DNA of 7,596 nt. It comes from Deltaproteobacteria bacterium (GTDB taxonomy: Bacteria; Desulfobacterota; DSM-4660; Desulfatiglandales; HGW-15). This document shows positions 1 through 7,596 of the stretch, in pieces. The stretch's first letter is position 1; each line of letters starts with the position of its first letter. A model generated the notes under the pieces. That model made no database searches. It saw only the letters and a program-made list of their open reading frames with translations, and was not told the origin of the DNA. The translations under genes and the position numbers were made by a program. The stretch spans positions 645,835 through 653,430 of the forward strand of contig CP070840.1 in NCBI GenBank assembly GCA_020342025.1. The letters are read 5' to 3'.

Positions 1-2976
1 CCGGCCATTGGCGGCAAGATGGCCCAGCTCGACAAGACCTTTCCCACGAATGACTGCTCCATGTGCATTGAATCTCCCAAGTTTATTGAATGCAGCAGAC
101 ATCCCAATATAGAGATCCTGACCTATACTGAAGTTGACCGGGTTGAAGGGGAGGCAGAAAACTTCAAGGTCACCCTGATTAAAAAGCCCAGATACATTTT
201 GGAGGAGAAATGCACGGGTTGTACCACCTGTGTTGAGTACTGCCCGGTCAAGGTCCCTGACCCGTATAATCAAAACTTGTCTTTGAATAAAGCCATCCAT
301 ATATACTTTTCTCAAGCCGTTCCCCTTGTCACTTACGTAGACCCTGAAACCTGCCTCTACCTTCAAGGCGAGAAGTGTACCATTTGCCGAGGAGTCTGTA
401 AGCATAAAGCCATAGATCTTCATCAAGAGGAGGAGAAGGTGGAAGTAAAGGTAGGGGCGATCGTTCTGTCTCCGGGCTATGACATATTTGACCCCAAGCT
501 GAGGGGCGACTATGGCTACGGCAAGATGGAGAACGTGGTAACCAGTATGGACTTTGAACGGCTGTTGTGCGCCACCGGGCCATACGAGGGTGAGATCAGG
601 CGCCCTTCTGACGGGAAGCATCCACACAAAATAGCCTGGATTCACTGCGTCGGTTCCAGACAGGTTATCGAAGGCGGCAACAGCTATTGTTCCGCGGTAT
701 GCTGCACCTATACCCAGAAGCAGGTGATTTTGGCAAAAGACCATGACGCTGAGATGGAGGCTACCATATTCCATAACGATATCCGGTCATTTGGCAAGGA
801 TTTCGAGCGATTCTACCAAAGAGCAGAGAACCTTGCCGGGGTTCGCTTTATTAGGAGCTATGTATCCATAGGAAAAGAGATCCCGGAAACCAAGAATGTA
901 ACCATAAGATACTCCACTTATGAGGACGGAGTAAAAGAGGAAGAATTCGATCTGGTGGTATTATCCGTTGGGTTGAGCCCTCCTGATGATGCGGAGGACC
1001 TGGCAAATAAGTTCGGTATCGAACTCAATGCTCACGGATTCTGTAAGACCAATCCTCTTAATGCTATTGAGACCTCTCGCCCGGGAATTTTTGTAAGCGG
1101 CGCCTTCCAGGGCCCTATGGATATCCCCGAGTCGGTCATGACCGCCAGCGGGGCTGATGCCCTTTGTAGTCAGTTTCTTGCCTACCGGCGAGGGAAGCTG
1201 GACAGAGAAAGGGTATATCCTATGGAAAGGGATGTCTCAGGAGAGGAACCCAGGGTTGGGGTCTTTGTGTGTCATTGTGGTGCCAATATCGGAAGGGTGG
1301 TAGATGTTCCTTCCGTCGTTGAATATGCCTCCAGCTTAGACAATGTGGTCCACGCTCAAGAAAGCATCTTTGCATGTTCTACGGATAATGCCCAGGAAAT
1401 ATCGGACAAGATCCGGGAAAAAGGGCTCAATCGCGTGGTCGTGGCCGCCTGTACGCCCAGGACCCATGAGCCGTTATTCCGGGACACATGTCGTGAAGGG
1501 GGTATTAATCCGTATTTCTTTGATATGGCTAATATCAGAGAACATTGCTCCTGGGTCCACTCGCGAGAAAAGGAAGATGCCACCCAGAAGGCAAAGGATA
1601 TCGTCCGGATGTCGGTGGCCCGAACCGCCCTTTTAGAACCTTTACAGGAATTTGAGCTGCCGGTGGACAAAAGGGGGTTAGTGGTGGGAGGAGGCCTGGC
1701 CGGGATGACCAGTGCTCTGAGCTTAGCTGAGCAGGGATTTGAGGTCTATCTGGTGGAAAAGGATAAAGATTTGGGGGGAATGGCTCGAAGAATTCATTAC
1801 ACCCTGGAAGGGATGGATGTTCAAGCATATTTGAATGACATGATACGCAAAGTTTACCAACACCCCTCGATTCATGTCTCTACCGATTCTACCATCACAG
1901 AGGCGTCCGGATACGTGGGAAATTTCACAACTAAAGTGACGTCTGAAGGAAGGGTCAAGGAGATACACCATGGAATAACCATTATCGCTACGGGTGCCGA
2001 AGAATATAAACCCACAGAATACCTTTATGGGGAAGATGATCGGGTATTGACCCTGCTGGAGTTGGAGGAGCAAATCGCCAAAAGAGAAGAAAAGGTGATC
2101 AACTCCCAGAGTCTGGTGATGATCCAATGTGTCGGTTGCAGACAAGGAGACAGAAATTATTGCAGCCGGGTGTGTTGTGATCAGGCGATAAAAAACGCCT
2201 TGAAATTGAAAGAGATCAACCCCGAGATGGATATCACCATTCTCTTTCGGGATATGAGAACGTATGGGTTTAAAGAGGATTATTACCGGGAAGCGGCAGA
2301 TAAAGATATAAAGTTCATCCGCTATGAGCCGGATGATAAACCCCAGGTGGAAGCCGTTGAAGAGGATGGTAAGCCCATATTAAAAGTTACCGCGACTGAT
2401 CTTATTTTAGGCAAAAAACTTTCTATAGATGCCGATTCACTCGCTTTGGCTGCCGCTGTTATTCCGTCAGCAACAAGTCATGAAATATCCATATTATTCA
2501 AGGTGGCTCTGAACCCGGATGGTTTCTTTCAGGAGGCCCATGTAAAACTACGGCCCGTTGACTTTGCCGCAGATGGCGTTTTCCTGTGCGGGATAGCTCA
2601 CTATCCCAAGCATATATCGGAAACGATCAGCCAGGCTTACGGAGCTGCCGGTCGAGCTGCCAATATACTTACAAGTGATTCGATCATAGCATCCGGTGCT
2701 ATTTGCGAGGTAAACGAGAACGAGTGTGTCACGTGTGGGGCATGTATTTCAGTTTGTAACTATGGTGCTATAGAGTTTGTTGATACACCGCAAGGCAAAA
2801 GGGCCAGGGTTAATCCTATTCTGTGTAAAGGAGATGGTCTCTGTAACTCAAGGTGTCCAACAGGGGCTATCTTTCTGAAGCACTATACCGATGAAGAGAT
2901 CTTGTGCCAAATCGACGCAGCGGTTCCAGCCCTTGTAGATATCCAAACAATGAACAAAGCAAAGATTGCTGCTTAA
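1..2976 (+). CDS. HdrA-like tandem iron-sulfur flavoprotein (BamE-type), 5' partial
   Basis: Likely a cytoplasmic electron-transfer hub that splits or merges electrons at FAD, as HdrA does in heterodisulfide reductase complexes. The frame is open from base 1: codons before the ATG at 19 read PAIGGK and continue into MAQLDKTFPTNDCSMC, the conserved HdrA FAD-domain segment, so the true start lies upstream and the Met at 19 is internal. Numbering that Met as 1, module 1 has an inserted ferredoxin domain (C65/68/71/75; C112/120/123/127), an IHCVGSRQ...YCSAVCC block (C210-C229) and a flavin-binding end near 356-381. A second HdrA copy follows: N-terminal domain VGVFVCHCGANIG (413-425), FAD motif GGGLAGM (557-563), QCVGCRQ...YCSRVCC (703-720), flavin end (853-880) and a C-terminal ferredoxin domain (C903/906/909/913; C936/942/946). 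Copy 2 lacks the inserted ferredoxin. One expected Cys in the last cluster is Asp939. No transmembrane segment is apparent. The family call is firm; the BamE role comes from gene order. Confidence 0.9.
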   Translation, partial: PAIGGKMAQLDKTFPTNDCSMCIESPKFIECSRHPNIEILTYTEVDRVEGEAENFKVTLIKKPRYILEEKCTGCTTCVEYCPVKVPDPYNQNLSLNKAIHIYFSQAVPLVTYVDPETCLYLQGEKCTICRGVCKHKAIDLHQEEEKVEVKVGAIVLSPGYDIFDPKLRGDYGYGKMENVVTSMDFERLLCATGPYEGEIRRPSDGKHPHKIAWIHCVGSRQVIEGGNSYCSAVCCTYTQKQVILAKDHDAEMEATIFHNDIRSFGKDFERFYQRAENLAGVRFIRSYVSIGKEIPETKNVTIRYSTYEDGVKEEEFDLVVLSVGLSPPDDAEDLANKFGIELNAHGFCKTNPLNAIETSRPGIFVSGAFQGPMDIPESVMTASGADALCSQFLAYRRGKLDRERVYPMERDVSGEEPRVGVFVCHCGANIGRVVDVPSVVEYASSLDNVVHAQESIFACSTDNAQEISDKIREKGLNRVVVAACTPRTHEPLFRDTCREGGINPYFFDMANIREHCSWVHSREKEDATQKAKDIVRMSVARTALLEPLQEFELPVDKRGLVVGGGLAGMTSALSLAEQGFEVYLVEKDKDLGGMARRIHYTLEGMDVQAYLNDMIRKVYQHPSIHVSTDSTITEASGYVGNFTTKVTSEGRVKEIHHGITIIATGAEEYKPTEYLYGEDDRVLTLLELEEQIAKREEKVINSQSLVMIQCVGCRQGDRNYCSRVCCDQAIKNALKLKEINPEMDITILFRDMRTYGFKEDYYREAADKDIKFIRYEPDDKPQVEAVEEDGKPILKVTATDLILGKKLSIDADSLALAAAVIPSATSHEISILFKVALNPDGFFQEAHVKLRPVDFAADGVFLCGIAHYPKHISETISQAYGAAGRAANILTSDSIIASGAICEVNENECVTCGACISVCNYGAIEFVDTPQGKRARVNPILCKGDGLCNSRCPTGAIFLKHYTDEEILCQIDAAVPALVDIQTMNKAKIAA

Positions 2977-2980
2977 GGAG
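2975..2980 (+). promoter_or_regulatory. Ribosome binding site for the MvhD-like selenoprotein gene
   Basis: AAGGAG overlaps the TAA stop of the HdrA-like gene and lies 10 bases before the ATG at 2991. It is a strong Shine-Dalgarno match. It supports 2991 as the real start rather than any codon downstream of the in-frame TGA: TTG at 3066 has no comparable site at the right distance and would remove the conserved N-terminus. Confidence 0.8.
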
Positions 2981-2990
2981 TGAGACAAGA

Positions 2991-3758
2991 ATGGGGACAG
3001 GATTTGGGTTTAAACCAAGGATCTTAGGTTTTTTATGCAATTGGTGAGGATACTCCGCGGCTGACTTGGCTGGAGTTTCCAGACTACAATATGCGCCTCA
3101 TATTAAGATTGTCCGCGTCATGTGCACCGGCAGAGTCGACCTGGCATTTATACTTCGAGCTTTCTCAAATGGAGCAGACGGGGTGTTTATCGGTGGTTGT
3201 TTGCTTGGTGAATGCCATTATATTACGGAAGGAAATTACCTTGCATTAAGCATGATGCATCTATGTAGAAAATTACTAGAACGGATAGGCGTAAACCCCG
3301 AGAGGTTAAGACTTGAATGGATATCTGCCTCTGAAGGCTTCCGTTTCGCCGAAGTTATGAATGACTTTTCCAGGAAGCTGAAGGAGTTAGGACCTCTTGG
3401 CAATGGCGAAGGAATAAATGGAAATGGATTAAAGTTCAAACTTGAAGCCGTCAAAAATTTAGTCCCCTACATTAAGCTGGTGGAAAGGGAGAGGCTGAGA
3501 GTACGTTTTGATACAGAAGAAGAATATAACGAATTTTTCGACAGTGACGAGGTGGACAGGTTATTTCATGAATTAATTGGTGATAAATTGGCCATAAGCC
3601 AAATTTTGTTACTCCTGCGAGAAAGACCCCTTTCAACGGGGGAAATCTCTGAGATTTTAGGCGTAGACCCGTCTGAAATATCAATACACCTTAACCGTTC
3701 AGCAAGGCAAGGATTAATCGAATTCGATGAAAGCCAGAAGCGCTTTGTTCCTGTCTAA
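2991..3758 (+). CDS. MvhD-like [2Fe-2S] selenoprotein (BamF-type) with C-terminal winged-helix-like domain
   Basis: Predicted electron-transfer subunit linking a dehydrogenase or Nuo-like module to HdrA, the role MvhD plays between hydrogenase and HdrA in methanogens. From ATG 2991 the product is 255 residues, with TGA at codon 19 read as selenocysteine. The N-terminus reads ILGFLCNWU then GYSAADLAGVSRLQY, a clear match to the MvhD FLCNWC region. Further conserved blocks are RVMCTGRVD (C45), GADGVFIGGCLLGECHY (C70, C75) and RLEWISASEGFRFAEV; C16, Sec19, C45, C70 and C75 are the candidate cluster ligands. The MvhD core ends near residue 135. After a Gly/Asn-rich linker (about 136-146), residues about 200-255 look like a winged helix-turn-helix (STGEISEILGVDPSEIS, then a RQGLIEF wing), which the roughly 140-residue MvhD lacks. 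The gene starts 14 bases after the HdrA-like stop. Translation past codon 19 should require SelB, tRNA-Sec and selenium. A sequencing error or pseudogene is unlikely given the codon's position and the hairpin behind it. Confidence 0.9.
3045..3047 (+). other. In-frame TGA predicted to encode selenocysteine (residue 19)
   Basis: The TGA is in frame with the ATG at 2991 and with the whole downstream MvhD-like frame. It follows TGC AAT TGG (Cys-Asn-Trp) and takes the place of the second Cys of the conserved CNWC motif. Cys/Sec exchange at a redox-active Cys is the usual signature of a selenoprotein. VhuD, the MvhD homologue of some Methanococcales, and BamF of class II benzoyl-CoA reductase operons are, from general knowledge, also selenoproteins. 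Confidence 0.9.
3048..3080 (+). promoter_or_regulatory. Putative bacterial SECIS hairpin
   Basis: This is an inverted repeat directly after the Sec TGA. GGATACTCC (3048-3056) pairs with GGAGTTTCC (3072-3080) at eight of nine positions, with one U-U mismatch. Inside it, GCT (3060-3062) can pair with GGC (3068-3070), including one G-U pair, leaving a five-base apical loop GACUU (3063-3067) that starts with G. The loop begins 15 bases after the TGA. An alternative inner fold pairs 3057-3058 with 3069-3070 and leaves a ten-base loop starting GG. Position, stem and a G at the start of the loop fit bacterial SECIS elements, which lie inside the reading frame and recruit SelB. The fold was done by eye, with no energy calculation. 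Confidence 0.72.
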
Positions 3759-3808: not shown

Positions 3809-4261
3809 ATGGATAATGGTGAAATCGATCAGATTATAGATAAATATCCGAGCGATCCCAGTTCACTCATTCAAGTGTTACTGGAGATTCAGATCGAAAA
3901 TCGCTGGCTTCCTAAGGAAGCATTAGAGAAGGTCAGCAAGAAATTAAAAGTGCCTTTAAGCCGGATACAGCACATCGTTACCTTTTATAAAGCCTTCAGT
4001 GTAGTTCCTAAAGGACGTCATGAAATTCACGTATGTACGGGCACTGCCTGTCATGTTCGTGGTGCGCCACGTCTCCTCGGCAAAATTCAAGACCTGACTG
4101 GACTCAGACCTGGCCTAACGGACCAGGATTTAAAGTTCAGCCTGGAGACTGTTAACTGCGTCGGCTGCTGCGCTTTAGGGCCGGTGATGGTCATCGATGG
4201 CGAATATCATGGCAAGATGGCACCGGCCAAGTCAGAAGATGTGTTGAAAAGCTATGAGTAA
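3809..4261 (+). CDS. NuoE-like thioredoxin-fold [2Fe-2S] subunit (BamG/HndA type)
   Basis: Small NADH dehydrogenase module subunit, 150 residues, typical for NuoE/HndA. It partners the NuoF-like protein encoded next and holds the low-potential N1a-type [2Fe-2S] cluster near the FMN. An N-terminal helical domain (about 1-65, with LPKEALEKVSKKLKVPLSRI and the family motif VTFYKAF) precedes a thioredoxin-like domain. The cluster ligands are visible as HVCTGTACHVRGA (C76, C81) and VNCVGCCALGP (C117, C121), spacing C-x4-C and C-x3-C; C120 is an extra adjacent Cys. The ATG start gives the normal family N-terminus; TAGGA at 3796-3800 ends 8 bases upstream, with a further purine-rich AGGAAGG before it. 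A 50-base gap separates it from the MvhD-like gene, and only 9 bases separate its stop from the NuoF-like start. The product is soluble and cytoplasmic. The family is certain; the partner enzyme is inferred. Confidence 0.93.
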   Translation: MDNGEIDQIIDKYPSDPSSLIQVLLEIQIENRWLPKEALEKVSKKLKVPLSRIQHIVTFYKAFSVVPKGRHEIHVCTGTACHVRGAPRLLGKIQDLTGLRPGLTDQDLKFSLETVNCVGCCALGPVMVIDGEYHGKMAPAKSEDVLKSYE

Positions 4262-4270: not shown

Positions 4271-7200
4271 ATGCCAAGGATAAATTCACCTGCTGAATTG
4301 GAAAAATTCAGGAAGGAAATCATATCAAAAAGGGATCCGAATAAGCCTTGCATTGCTATATGTACGGGAACGGGTTGCCTCGCTCTCGGCGCAGCAAATG
4401 TGGTTGCCGCCTTCAAAGAGGAGATTAAAAAACAGGGGCTGGAGACCAAAGTGGATATCAGGGAAACAGGTTGCCCCGGCTTCTGTGAGAGAGGTCCCCT
4501 GATTGTGATTTATCCTGAGGAGATATGTTATCTTCAGGTGCAGCCGGGCGATGCAGAAGAGATCGTTTCTCAGACCATACTTGCCAAGAAGGTCATCGAT
4601 AGGCTGCTTTATGTGGATCCCATCGCCGATGAGAAGATAGTCCGTGAATCTGAGATACCATTCTACAATAATCAGATGCGGCGCCTTATCGGCAATAATA
4701 TTAGGCTTGACCCTAAAAGCATTGATAACTACCTCGCAGTGGGCGGTTATTCTGCCTTGGTTAAAGCCCTTTTTCAGGAGACTCCGGAGCAAGTGGTGGA
4801 GCTGGTGAAAAATTCTAAGCTGAGAGGGAGGGGTGGCGCCGGATTTCCTGCAGGGATAAAGTGGGAATTTGCTCGCAATAGTCCTGATAAGACAAAGTAT
4901 GTGATCGTCAACGCCGATGAGGGAGACCCGGGGGCTTTTATGGATAGGGCTCTACTGGAGGGGAACCCTTTCTCAGTCCTTGAAGGGTTGACCATCGGAG
5001 CTTATGCCATCGGCGCCCACGAAGGCTATGTTTACGTTCGACAGGAATACCCCTTAGCCGTAGAGAATGTGACCCTCGCCATCAAGCAGGCTGGGGCGTA
5101 TGGTTTTCTTGGGAAAGATATCCTTGGCTCCGGCTTTGATTTCACTGTTAAAGTGCATCGGGGAGCCGGCGCTTTCGTTTGCGGTGAGGAAACGGCTCTC
5201 CTCATGTCTCTAGAAGGCAAAGCAGGCGAGCCAAGGGCGAGGCCGCCATATCCGGCCGTAAAGGGGCTCTATGGCAAGCCGACAAATATAAATAATGTGG
5301 AGACATGGGCCAATGTTCCCTTGATTATTAACAACGGGGCTGAGTACCTTACCTCAATTGGCACTGAGGGAAGCAAGGGCACCAAGATATTTTCATTGGT
5401 TGGTAAGGTGAATAATACCGGCCTCGTGGAAGTCCCCATGGGTATAACCCTGAGAGATATTATCTATGAGGTGGGCGGCGGCATCCCCGGAGACAAGAAG
5501 TTCAAGGCCGTGCAGACGGGTGGTCCTTCGGGAGGATGTATCCCTGAGGAATACCTGGATATAGAGGTGGACTTTGACGAACTGGCCAAAGTTGGCGCAA
5601 TCATGGGTTCAGGTGGCATGATCGTCATGGATGAAGACACCTGTATGGTTGATGTGGCCAAGTACTTTCTCAAGTTCCTTTCTGGTGAATCGTGTGGCAA
5701 ATGCTCCCCATGTCGTGAAGGCATCAGGCAGATGCTTAAGATTCTGACTAAGATCAGTGAAGGAAAGGGAAGAGAGGGCGACATCGAACTTTTGGAGGAG
5801 CTATCCGAGGCCACCAGAGATGCCTCACTCTGTGCTTTAGGTGGGAGTGCCCCCAACCCGGTGCTGTCTACACTGAGATATTTTCGCCATGAATACGAAG
5901 ACCACATCCTCAATAAGCGATGCGAGGCAGGCGTCTGCTCAGAACTTTACAAGGCCAAATGCATCAATGCCTGTCCCATCGGCCAAGATGTCCCGGGTTA
6001 CCTTTCTCTGGTGGCCGAGGGCCGGTATGAGGAGGCCATCGCGCTCATCTATCAGACAAACCCCCTCCCGGGAGTCTGTGGCCGGGTCTGTACGCATCCG
6101 TGTACAGAGGTCTGCCTCAGGGGAGAAACCGATGAGCCATTGAGCATTGCAAAGATCAAGCGATTCGCCGCCGATATGGCAAAGAAAAAGGGCTTCACCG
6201 TCAAGGTTGAAAAAGGTGAGGCAAAGGAAGAAAAGGTGGCCGTCATTGGCGGTGGACCCGGTGGCCTGGCCGCAGCGTACAATCTGGCGTTGATGGGATA
6301 TAAACCCACTATCTTCGAGGAACTCCCGCAGCTGGGCGGCATGCTTCGTTATGGGATCCCCGCCTATCGTCTCCCCAGAGATATCCTTGATCAGGAGATC
6401 GATTTCATTCTAAGGGCAGGCGTTGAAGTCAAAACCAACACCAGGGTGGGGCGCGAGGTTTCCATGGAGCAACTCCAAAGAGACTACGATGCCATCTTTG
6501 TGGCCGTGGGCGCTCACAAGAGCCTCCCCATCCGCATTCCCGGGGACGACCTGCCCGGTGTCAGGGGGGGTGCCGAGTTCTTAAGAGAGGTAGAATTGGG
6601 AACCGCTCCGGACCCAGGGAAAAAGGTTGCCGTGATCGGGGGCGGCAATGTGGCTATCGATACAGCCAGGATCTGCCGAAGAATGGGGGCAGAGGTGACC
6701 ATTGCTTACAGACGTGAGAGGAAAGACATGCCCGCCTACGAAGAGGAGATTGTGGACGCCCTTGCAGAGGGCATCGAACTCAAGGAACTTGTGGCTCCCA
6801 AGTCCATCAGTCAGGTCAACGGCAGGTTGGCCCTTGAGCTGGATGAATGCGAGCTGAAGGATTTCGATCGCAGCGGCCGCCGAAGGCCGGTCCCCATAGA
6901 GGGATGCGTGATAAGCCGGGAATATGACACCATCTTTTCCGCCATTGGGCAGTCACCGGATCTTGAGTTCGCCGGATCGCTTGTCACTAAAGGGAACACC
7001 ATCACCGTAGAGCGTCATTCTTTGCTTACCAATGTCCCTAATGTCTTTGCAGGCGGGGATGCGGTCACCGGCCCGGCGCGGGTCGTGGATGCCCTGGCAC
7101 ACGGGAAACGGGTCGCGGTGGAGATAGACAAATATTTGGCCAAGAAGAGGGGCGGGAGACCCCATGAGGAACGTCTGGAAACGATCAACGTGACCATGAC

Positions 7201-7393
7201 GGTGCCCGAAGAAGTGATCGAACAGGCAATGGCAGAAATGCCCAAGCTAGATCCTAAAAAGCGAATCAGGGATTTCGCTGCAGAAGTGGAGATTGGGTTT
7301 GACGAGGAAACAGCCAAGAGGGAATGCGCTCGCTGTCTCAGGTGTGATGTGAAGGAAGAAACAATGATAGTCAAAGAGAGTAAAGAAAAATGA
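4271..7393 (+). CDS. NuoF-like NADH:acceptor flavoprotein fused to a GltD/NfnB-like FAD-NAD(P)H module (BamH-like)
   Basis: A 1040-residue fusion of NuoF/HndC with a glutamate synthase small-subunit/NfnB-type oxidoreductase. Residues 25-95 form a thioredoxin-like [2Fe-2S] domain (C31, C36, C68, C72). NuoF follows: RGRGGAGFPAG (185-195) and NADEGDPGAFMDR (214-226) for FMN and NADH, RGAGAFVCGEETALL (297-311), an SLBB region (about 372-450) and the N3-type [4Fe-4S] ligands SCGKCSPCREG (C475, C478, C481) with C521. From about 551 a GltD-type iron-sulfur domain carries eight Cys (551, 556, 564, 568, 603, 607, 611, 615), followed by FAD motif VIGGGPGG (658-665), second nucleotide motif VIGGGNVA (788-795) and FAD-closing motif AGGDAVTGPARVVDALAHGKRVA-like (927-949). 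The tail ECARCLRCDV adds C1019, C1022 and C1025. Arg residues in AYRRERKDMPA (812-822) resemble NADPH-binding GltD proteins. NADH oxidation in the first half is well founded; substrate and direction in the second half are not known. Its TGA stop overlaps the next ATG. Confidence 0.93.
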   Translation: MPRINSPAELEKFRKEIISKRDPNKPCIAICTGTGCLALGAANVVAAFKEEIKKQGLETKVDIRETGCPGFCERGPLIVIYPEEICYLQVQPGDAEEIVSQTILAKKVIDRLLYVDPIADEKIVRESEIPFYNNQMRRLIGNNIRLDPKSIDNYLAVGGYSALVKALFQETPEQVVELVKNSKLRGRGGAGFPAGIKWEFARNSPDKTKYVIVNADEGDPGAFMDRALLEGNPFSVLEGLTIGAYAIGAHEGYVYVRQEYPLAVENVTLAIKQAGAYGFLGKDILGSGFDFTVKVHRGAGAFVCGEETALLMSLEGKAGEPRARPPYPAVKGLYGKPTNINNVETWANVPLIINNGAEYLTSIGTEGSKGTKIFSLVGKVNNTGLVEVPMGITLRDIIYEVGGGIPGDKKFKAVQTGGPSGGCIPEEYLDIEVDFDELAKVGAIMGSGGMIVMDEDTCMVDVAKYFLKFLSGESCGKCSPCREGIRQMLKILTKISEGKGREGDIELLEELSEATRDASLCALGGSAPNPVLSTLRYFRHEYEDHILNKRCEAGVCSELYKAKCINACPIGQDVPGYLSLVAEGRYEEAIALIYQTNPLPGVCGRVCTHPCTEVCLRGETDEPLSIAKIKRFAADMAKKKGFTVKVEKGEAKEEKVAVIGGGPGGLAAAYNLALMGYKPTIFEELPQLGGMLRYGIPAYRLPRDILDQEIDFILRAGVEVKTNTRVGREVSMEQLQRDYDAIFVAVGAHKSLPIRIPGDDLPGVRGGAEFLREVELGTAPDPGKKVAVIGGGNVAIDTARICRRMGAEVTIAYRRERKDMPAYEEEIVDALAEGIELKELVAPKSISQVNGRLALELDECELKDFDRSGRRRPVPIEGCVISREYDTIFSAIGQSPDLEFAGSLVTKGNTITVERHSLLTNVPNVFAGGDAVTGPARVVDALAHGKRVAVEIDKYLAKKRGGRPHEERLETINVTMTVPEEVIEQAMAEMPKLDPKKRIRDFAAEVEIGFDEETAKRECARCLRCDVKEETMIVKESKEK

Positions 7394-7596
7394 GTAAAAT
7401 CCTTTTACAGATTGATGAAAGAGAAGTTGAAGCAGAGGAAGGGATGACCATTTTGGAGGCAGCCCAGAGTGTAGGGATATCTATTCCCACACTTTGTCAC
7501 CACGAGAAATTAAAACCTTATGGCGCTTGCCGAATCTGCGTCGTAGAAGTAGATGCTCGCGGCAGGACAAATCTCGTTGCTGCTTGCCTTCACCCG
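7390..7596 (+). CDS. NuoG-like / [2Fe-2S] ferredoxin-domain subunit, 3' partial (BamI-like, HndD-like or FdhA-like)
   Basis: The ATG overlaps the stop of the NuoF-like gene (ATGA at 7390-7393), so translation is probably coupled. AAAGAGAG at 7373-7380 is a moderate ribosome binding site, 9 bases upstream. Only 69 residues are present before the window ends. They start MSKILLQIDEREVEAEEGMTILEAA and form a plant-type-like [2Fe-2S] ferredoxin domain with C36, C47, C50 and C66 (C-x10-C-x2-C-x15-C), in the motif IPTLCHHEKLKPYGACRICVVEV. This N-terminal domain is shared by NuoG, the HndD-type [FeFe]-hydrogenase subunit, NAD-dependent formate dehydrogenase alpha subunit and the NuoG-like BamI. The visible part cannot tell them apart; gene order favours BamI. 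The cluster would accept electrons from the NuoF-like partner. Confidence 0.88.
   Translation, partial: MSKILLQIDEREVEAEEGMTILEAAQSVGISIPTLCHHEKLKPYGACRICVVEVDARGRTNLVAACLHP

Follow-up and report, generated by a model that had tools for sequence, protein, structure and literature searches.

The window, the whole stretch of 7,596 nucleotides analyzed here (contig CP070840.1 of a Deltaproteobacteria bacterium), carries bam-type genes on its forward strand in the order E-F-G-H-I. The first, bamE (19..2976), encodes an HdrA-type flavin and FeS subunit, is counted from the first ATG in the window, and contains no in-frame TGA. Its frame is open to base 1, and the nearest fetched relative by operon (locus L007) shows about 50 more N-terminal residues. 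Downstream, bamG (3809..4261) encodes a NuoE-type [2Fe-2S] thioredoxin-like subunit, and bamH (4271..7393) encodes a NuoF-type subunit (FMN and FeS) with a GltD-like FAD/NAD(P) domain fused on at about residues 550-960. A bamI-type gene for a Fer2 subunit (7390..7596) runs off the window end. The gene of interest, the mvhD-type bamF (2991..3758, forward strand), was assigned from its frame, its domain, alignment with chains of solved structures, and operon context. It comprises 255 codons when TGA is read as selenocysteine (Sec). The frame runs from ATG 2991-2993 to TAA 3756-3758, with a Shine-Dalgarno-like AAGGAG at 2975..2980, 10 nt upstream of the ATG. Its sole internal stop is the TGA at 3045-3047, codon 19, which the frame and the alignments predict to be the Sec of a CNWU motif, at the second Cys position of CxxC. 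An earlier, sequence-only reading had described this start, ribosome-binding motif, and single interruption, and its description is exact.

The product of bamF is conserved across the TGA. In a profile search, the FlpD family (PF02662) matches residues 11-134 (E 5e-51), covering model positions 1-123 of 123 with 172 bits against a curated cut-off of 22.3. When the first 25 residues are removed, the score falls to 141 bits and the first 15 profile positions are lost. A C-terminal helix-turn-helix (HTH_5) follows at residues 204-243. In alignments with three solved MvhD-type chains (5odc, 8rvu, and 7bkb), residue 19 is matched to the second Cys of CNWC; the in-frame TGA thus falls on a Cys conserved in homologues, as in a selenoprotein. 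Both the MvhD-like residues on either side of the TGA and its position within the CNWC motif had been proposed from the sequence, and the FlpD match and the structural alignment agree with them. The MvhD of the methanogen Hdr-Mvh complex (5odc) aligns with residues 7-136 (E 5e-46) and also works beside HdrA. However, it has Cys instead of Sec, is 140 amino acids long without the C-terminal domain, and partners a hydrogenase, whereas the window's partner is NuoEF-type.

In protein databases, this gene appears in shortened form. The record P0002, 98% identical to the window protein, is 230 amino acids long and begins at residue 26, seven codons past the TGA. P0059 and P0069, each 90% identical, are likewise 230 amino acids long and begin at residue 26. 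To judge from these protein records, the underlying genes probably carry the TGA too. The sequence-only reading had anticipated that standard gene callers would report a gene starting after the TGA, which is what these records look like.

The TGA recurs widely among relatives of bamF. In a scan with one genome per species, codon 19 in the best 80 of 587 confirmed loci is TGA in 56 and TGC or TGT in 23, and the site is absent from one (L080, which starts after it). According to record titles and the lineage labels of the tree tool, TGA carriers include Thermodesulfobacteriota, Bacillota, Deltaproteobacteria MAGs labelled Myxococcota, an Actinomycetes MAG (L006), and a Bacteroidetes MAG (L016). 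Strong matches (E up to 1e-60) occur in 102 of 395 genomes sampled from the phylum of L007's genome and in 4 of 400 from that of L008, a Dehalococcoidia MAG. Among the 128 match rows listed for the former phylum, 113 have one in-frame TGA, 13 have no stop, and two have TAA, counted by eye and with TGA scored irrespective of its position in the frame. A search of viral contigs found no relatives of the gene. In 65 TGA genes, differences at codon positions 1, 2, and 3 are 0.31, 0.16, and 0.57 for codons 5-17, before the TGA, and 0.23, 0.14, and 0.54 for codons 36-78; this likeness indicates a protein-type constraint on both sides of the TGA. One Geobacter MAG (genome G006) has both forms, a Sec-type copy (L009) and a Cys-type copy (L021) that shows no match to the bam-type neighbours tested. 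There is also a second FlpD subfamily, in which a C-terminal pair of [4Fe-4S] motifs replaces the helix-turn-helix (L113:18315-19043, L074, L076, and L092). The L113 copy has one TGA, L074 and L092 have TGA and the exact hairpin described below, and L076 has TGA and a one-base variant of it.

A conserved hairpin lies shortly after the TGA. At 3070..3082 (forward strand), the sequence CTGGAGTTTCCAG can form a four-pair CUGG/CCAG stem around the five-base loop AGUUU, whose G is 27 nt 3' of the TGA. Bacterial SECIS elements are described as stem-loops that closely follow the UGA and carry a G in their small apical loop (PMC1088965, in extract). The hairpin has this feature, although free-energy folding alone does not pick it out, and it is therefore a candidate SECIS. 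The codons for residues 27-31 are nearly frozen in 58 TGA rows of bamF relatives (window included, L053 twice): GCT reaches 0.96 (background 0.10), GGA 0.91 (0.22), GTT 0.90 (0.15), TCC 1.00 (0.34), and AGA 0.83 (0.22). In 23 Cys genes, other codons are used at these residues and none exceeds 0.83. Likewise, third-position difference over codons 27-35 is 0.26 in TGA genes vs. 0.57 in Cys genes. The stem was counted over 105 loci considered, leaving out five duplicates and one without the site, and its expected frequency was obtained by redrawing codons 27-31 from each gene's own synonymous usage. Of 76 distinct TGA genes, 74 have the full four-pair stem (4.5 expected), but only one of 24 Cys genes does (0.6 expected); the TGA rows are related to one another, so this expectation is a yardstick and not a p-value. 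A first count had given 63 of 65 distinct TGA genes (3.9 expected) and one of 24 Cys genes (0.6 expected), and the stem was then found in all 11 TGA genes added afterwards. The exact 13-mer occurs in 64 of the 76 TGA genes (0.06 expected) and in none of the 24 Cys genes. Within the window, the motif occurs once with up to one mismatch allowed (0.01 expected). The loop varies within the pattern N-GU-N-U, the exceptions being L063 and L076 with a final A. Its GU carries no weight as evidence because Val codons supply it in both gene sets. In an alignment of 40 TGA genes (32 distinct rows), 98.4% of the pair cells are formed, compared with 49.0% in 24 Cys genes. No covariation was seen in that alignment, as the stem pairs hardly vary. 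One Cys-type gene from an Armatimonadetes MAG (L002:3367-3416) is a single base short of the full motif, possibly a remnant SECIS.

Folding energies give a different picture. Against synonymous resampling, the stretch after the TGA is not unusually stable in TGA genes: with the window included and L053 counted twice, 53 TGA rows have a mean z of +0.42, slightly less stable than resampled sequences, and 23 Cys genes have -0.20. The window alone has a z of -1.69, which is due to a hairpin other than 3070-3082. In the isolated window RNA, a rival hairpin at 3048-3080 dominates, with a pair probability of about 0.87 vs. 0.11 for 3070-3082. This more stable structure (z -2.4 for 41 nt) was the first SECIS candidate and was dropped, as it is not common to the relatives. 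On general grounds, a ribosome with the UGA in its A site would cover the first part of the 3048-3080 stem and could thereby free the conserved hairpin. An Rfam search of the window returned only two weak snoRNA matches, far below their cut-offs. Among the open-licence PMC papers searched, no title points to a SECIS in bamF. The conservation of the 3070-3082 hairpin suggests a SECIS role.

Genes for Sec synthesis accompany the TGA form. The survey covered 47 genomes behind 50 of the best 80 loci, with "Cys-only" denoting genomes that have only Cys genes among those loci. A selA match above the cut-off was found in 25 of 26 TGA genomes vs. nine of 21 Cys-only genomes (Fisher p 6e-5). A tRNA-Sec above 60 bits was found in 23 of 26 and 12 of 21, respectively (p 0.02); this threshold was set after the scores were seen, because some matches that barely exceeded the family cut-off of 47 were second or third hits in a genome and resembled other tRNAs. 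The selA match is missing from one TGA genome (G033) and a tRNA-Sec above 60 bits from three of the 26, perhaps because their assemblies are incomplete. The gene for SelB was looked for in one genome, that of L007, where selB, selA, and tRNA-Sec are all present.

These observations bear on how the TGA is to be read. A nonsense mutation of TGC or TGT in a pseudogene, or a sequencing error, is conceivable with a single contig at hand, but the same codon would then not be TGA in 56 of the best 80 loci, which span several phyla. Nor would protein constraint persist on both sides of it, or the hairpin stem separate TGA genes from Cys genes so sharply (74/76 vs. 1/24); this reading is extremely unlikely. 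Translation could instead begin downstream at TTG 3066, yielding the 230-residue protein of the P0002, P0059, and P0069 records, with the upstream part not translated with it. However, the 18 upstream codons carry the conserved CxxU, evolve as coding sequence, and are in phase with the rest, and a protein starting there would forfeit the first 15 FlpD profile positions, which makes such a start very improbable. A reassigned code, or read-through of UGA as Trp or Cys, would also open the frame, and openness alone does not prove Sec. Yet TGA serves as the ordinary stop of bamH at 7391-7393 and is absent inside the HdrA, NuoE, and NuoF frames; no further TGA interrupts the four frames, about 2,430 codons in all, and TGA genes go with selA and with the hairpin. 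Another meaning of UGA therefore has a negligible chance of being correct. An archaeal-type selenoprotein was likewise set aside: the named TGA records among the best 80 loci are all bacterial or unplaced MAGs, and the hairpin lies within the frame, whereas archaeal genes have their SECIS in the 3'-UTR (PMC11227280, in extract).

The preferred reading is that bamF encodes an FlpD/MvhD-type electron-transfer subunit of a Bam-like complex with Sec at residue 19 (CNWU), its UGA being decoded with the hairpin at 3070-3082. We hold this to be very probably correct. Sec at this position had been claimed by the sequence-only reading and now has the support of the conserved TGA and of the hairpin stem. 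In this organism, SelB and Sec-tRNA would decode UGA 3045-3047, aided by the mRNA hairpin, and Sec insertion is accordingly predicted from the relatives and the sequence. The [2Fe-2S] cluster of MvhD lies near the bifurcating HdrA flavin (PMC12350162, PMC6019823, both in extract). By analogy, BamF would hold a [2Fe-2S] cluster and could pass electrons between an NADH-type module (BamGHI) and the bifurcating flavin of BamE/HdrA. The Sec of the CxxC pair would then sit at or beside this cluster, where its chemistry is conjectural. Five positions (16, 19, 45, 70, and 75) hold Cys, or Sec in the case of 19, without exception in the 76 TGA genes, the 24 Cys genes, and a set of 117 Cys proteins picked by their CxWC motif. 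Since a cluster usually has four ligands and five positions are invariant, Sec19 may be either a ligand or a neighbour of the cluster. The adjacent residues change with the form of the site. At residue 20, the 76 TGA genes have Ala, Gly, or Val, and the Cys set (24 genes, 117 proteins) has Cys, Ser, or Thr; at residue 23, the TGA genes have Ala or Ser, and the Cys set has Gly with two exceptions. This switch may reflect a compensating neighbouring Cys or plain inheritance.

The neighbouring genes place bamF in a bam-type operon. The genome of L007 has the order AOR-type BamB, BamC, CCG-type BamD, HdrA-type BamE, bamF, NuoE-type BamG, NuoF-type BamH, Fer2-type BamI, and a second BamB, and L113 reads B-C-D-E-F-G-H-I-B. 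The AOR proteins of L007/L113 match the solved benzoyl-CoA reductase chain 4z3w_A with 695 bits (first BamB-like) and 1128 bits (second), and the small FeS protein of L007 (BamC) is best matched by 4z3w_E (214 bits). We take the 4z3w structure to be from Geobacter metallireducens. Among the fetched loci, the window's HdrA and NuoF are closest to those of L007/L113, and its NuoE is tied closest. The bamF of G. metallireducens is listed as "hydrogenase, delta subunit; HTH" (PMC1924859, in extract). This entry and the operon order of L007 identify the window gene as bamF and the window as bamE'-F-G-H-I'; the earlier MvhD/BamF assignment is borne out by these neighbours and by the MvhD-chain alignment. 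Across 65 TGA loci, many of them cut by contig or fetch ends, the neighbours are HdrA (60), NuoE (60), NuoF (57), BamI (43), BamD (38), BamC (31), and AOR (6). Cys loci have mostly the same neighbours (HdrA in 22 of 24, NuoF in 19 of 24), and L021 and L035 have none.

Membership of a benzoyl-CoA-reductase-type complex is suggested by this context, with bamB and bamC lying outside the window. The same Sec protein could instead serve another HdrA-linked oxidoreductase, an alternative that we consider rather unlikely but worth weighing. The position of bamB outside the window would allow it, as would the first BamB-like protein of L113, whose 695 bits against the 1128 of the second suggest that AOR partners vary. 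The GltD-like fusion on the window NuoF, which is unmatched in the compared loci, also means that electron input may differ. Against this stands the closeness of the window's HdrA and NuoF, and the tied NuoE, to genes in the bamB-I-like operon of L007/L113. No counterpart of the GltD-like domain turned up among the 64 other TGA loci and the 24 Cys loci, where NuoF was seen in 56 and 19, respectively, and was sometimes cut. In the database, 32 of 120 relatives listed align with the fused NuoF over 93-99% of its length at 79-94% identity; the closest of those listed with a named organism is 89% identical and comes from a Thermodesulfobacteriota MAG. The fusion may change the electron carrier used.

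The history of the Sec and Cys forms was approached through trees. When FlpD-Fer4 Sec proteins serve as the outgroup, Sec genes branch off deepest, and the Cys genes fall into more than one group nested among them. A single Cys group appears in 0% of 200 bootstrap trees, yet Cys monophyly is not rejected in the AU test (p 0.125). The window and the three truncated records form one clade, which falls inside a Cys-type clade in the outgroup-rooted tree (97/94). One scenario is that the TGA and its 3' hairpin form a transferable N-terminal cassette that recombined back into a Cys-type bamF in the window lineage. Besides that placement, the cassette would explain why the first 50 or so residues of the window protein are closest to Sec genes (0.88-0.90 vs. 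0.80) and the last 85 or so to Cys genes (0.93-0.97 vs. 0.72-0.80), although the Cys proteins in this comparison were picked for likeness to the window. However, a Cys clade without the window clade is not rejected (p-AU 0.377), the window clade stands next to the Cys clade in a larger tree, and the 5' DNA of the window also resembles L007, the nearest fetched relative by operon, which leaves such a regain improbable. Separately, in a Pelotomaculum MAG, a decayed 5' piece of a Sec-type bamF (L035:4499-4662), in which the TGA and the letters of the CTGG/CCAG stem can still be recognized, immediately precedes an intact Cys-type gene. This arrangement is likely a fossil of the switch, in which a Sec gene was replaced by a Cys gene.

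Selenium has been connected with this system before. The purified Geobacter Bam complex reportedly contains selenium, and a 2004 paper by Peters is, by its title, on selenocysteine proteins in benzoate metabolism. Nineteen bacterial FrhD selenoproteins have been counted, including one in G. metallireducens (PMC1794560, in extract), which is presumably BamF. Extracts of other papers list a PF02662 selenoprotein family with a CxxU motif (PMC13188914), the selenoproteins mvhD1, 2, 3, and 5 of Desulfobacterium autotrophicum (PMC2702500), and selenoprotein genes that include mvhD and one named BamE (PMC5109826). BamF has also been called selenite-binding (PMC13119186). Thus, the description of a hidden selenoprotein given by the sequence-only reading holds for the annotation but not for the family, as Sec in FrhD/MvhD is already in print; the present analysis adds the conserved hairpin, the placement in a bam-type operon, and the joint change of residues 20 and 23. 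As far as the extracts go, the FrhD/MvhD/VhuD selenoproteins (PF02662, CxxU) have the same Sec at the second position of CxxC, whereas the window protein has a C-terminal helix-turn-helix. A close known counterpart is BamF of class II benzoyl-CoA reductase (bamBCDEFGHI of G. metallireducens), with the same E-F-G-H-I order, the same FlpD and helix-turn-helix architecture, and TGA genes in Geobacter and Geomonas records (L005, L009, L013, and L017). Unlike that system, the window's BamH is fused to a GltD-like domain, bamB and bamC are not seen in the window, and the host is uncultivated.

The analysis corrects the reading of a common gene. With an in-frame TGA in 113 of the 128 rows listed, truncated BamF/MvhD records are likely widespread in databases. 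The hairpin, near-frozen across phyla, provides a simple DNA signature for finding such genes. Finally, the strict switch between CxWU[A/G/V] and CxWC[C/S/T] offers a testable lead on the role of Sec by the [2Fe-2S] cluster of an electron-bifurcation partner.
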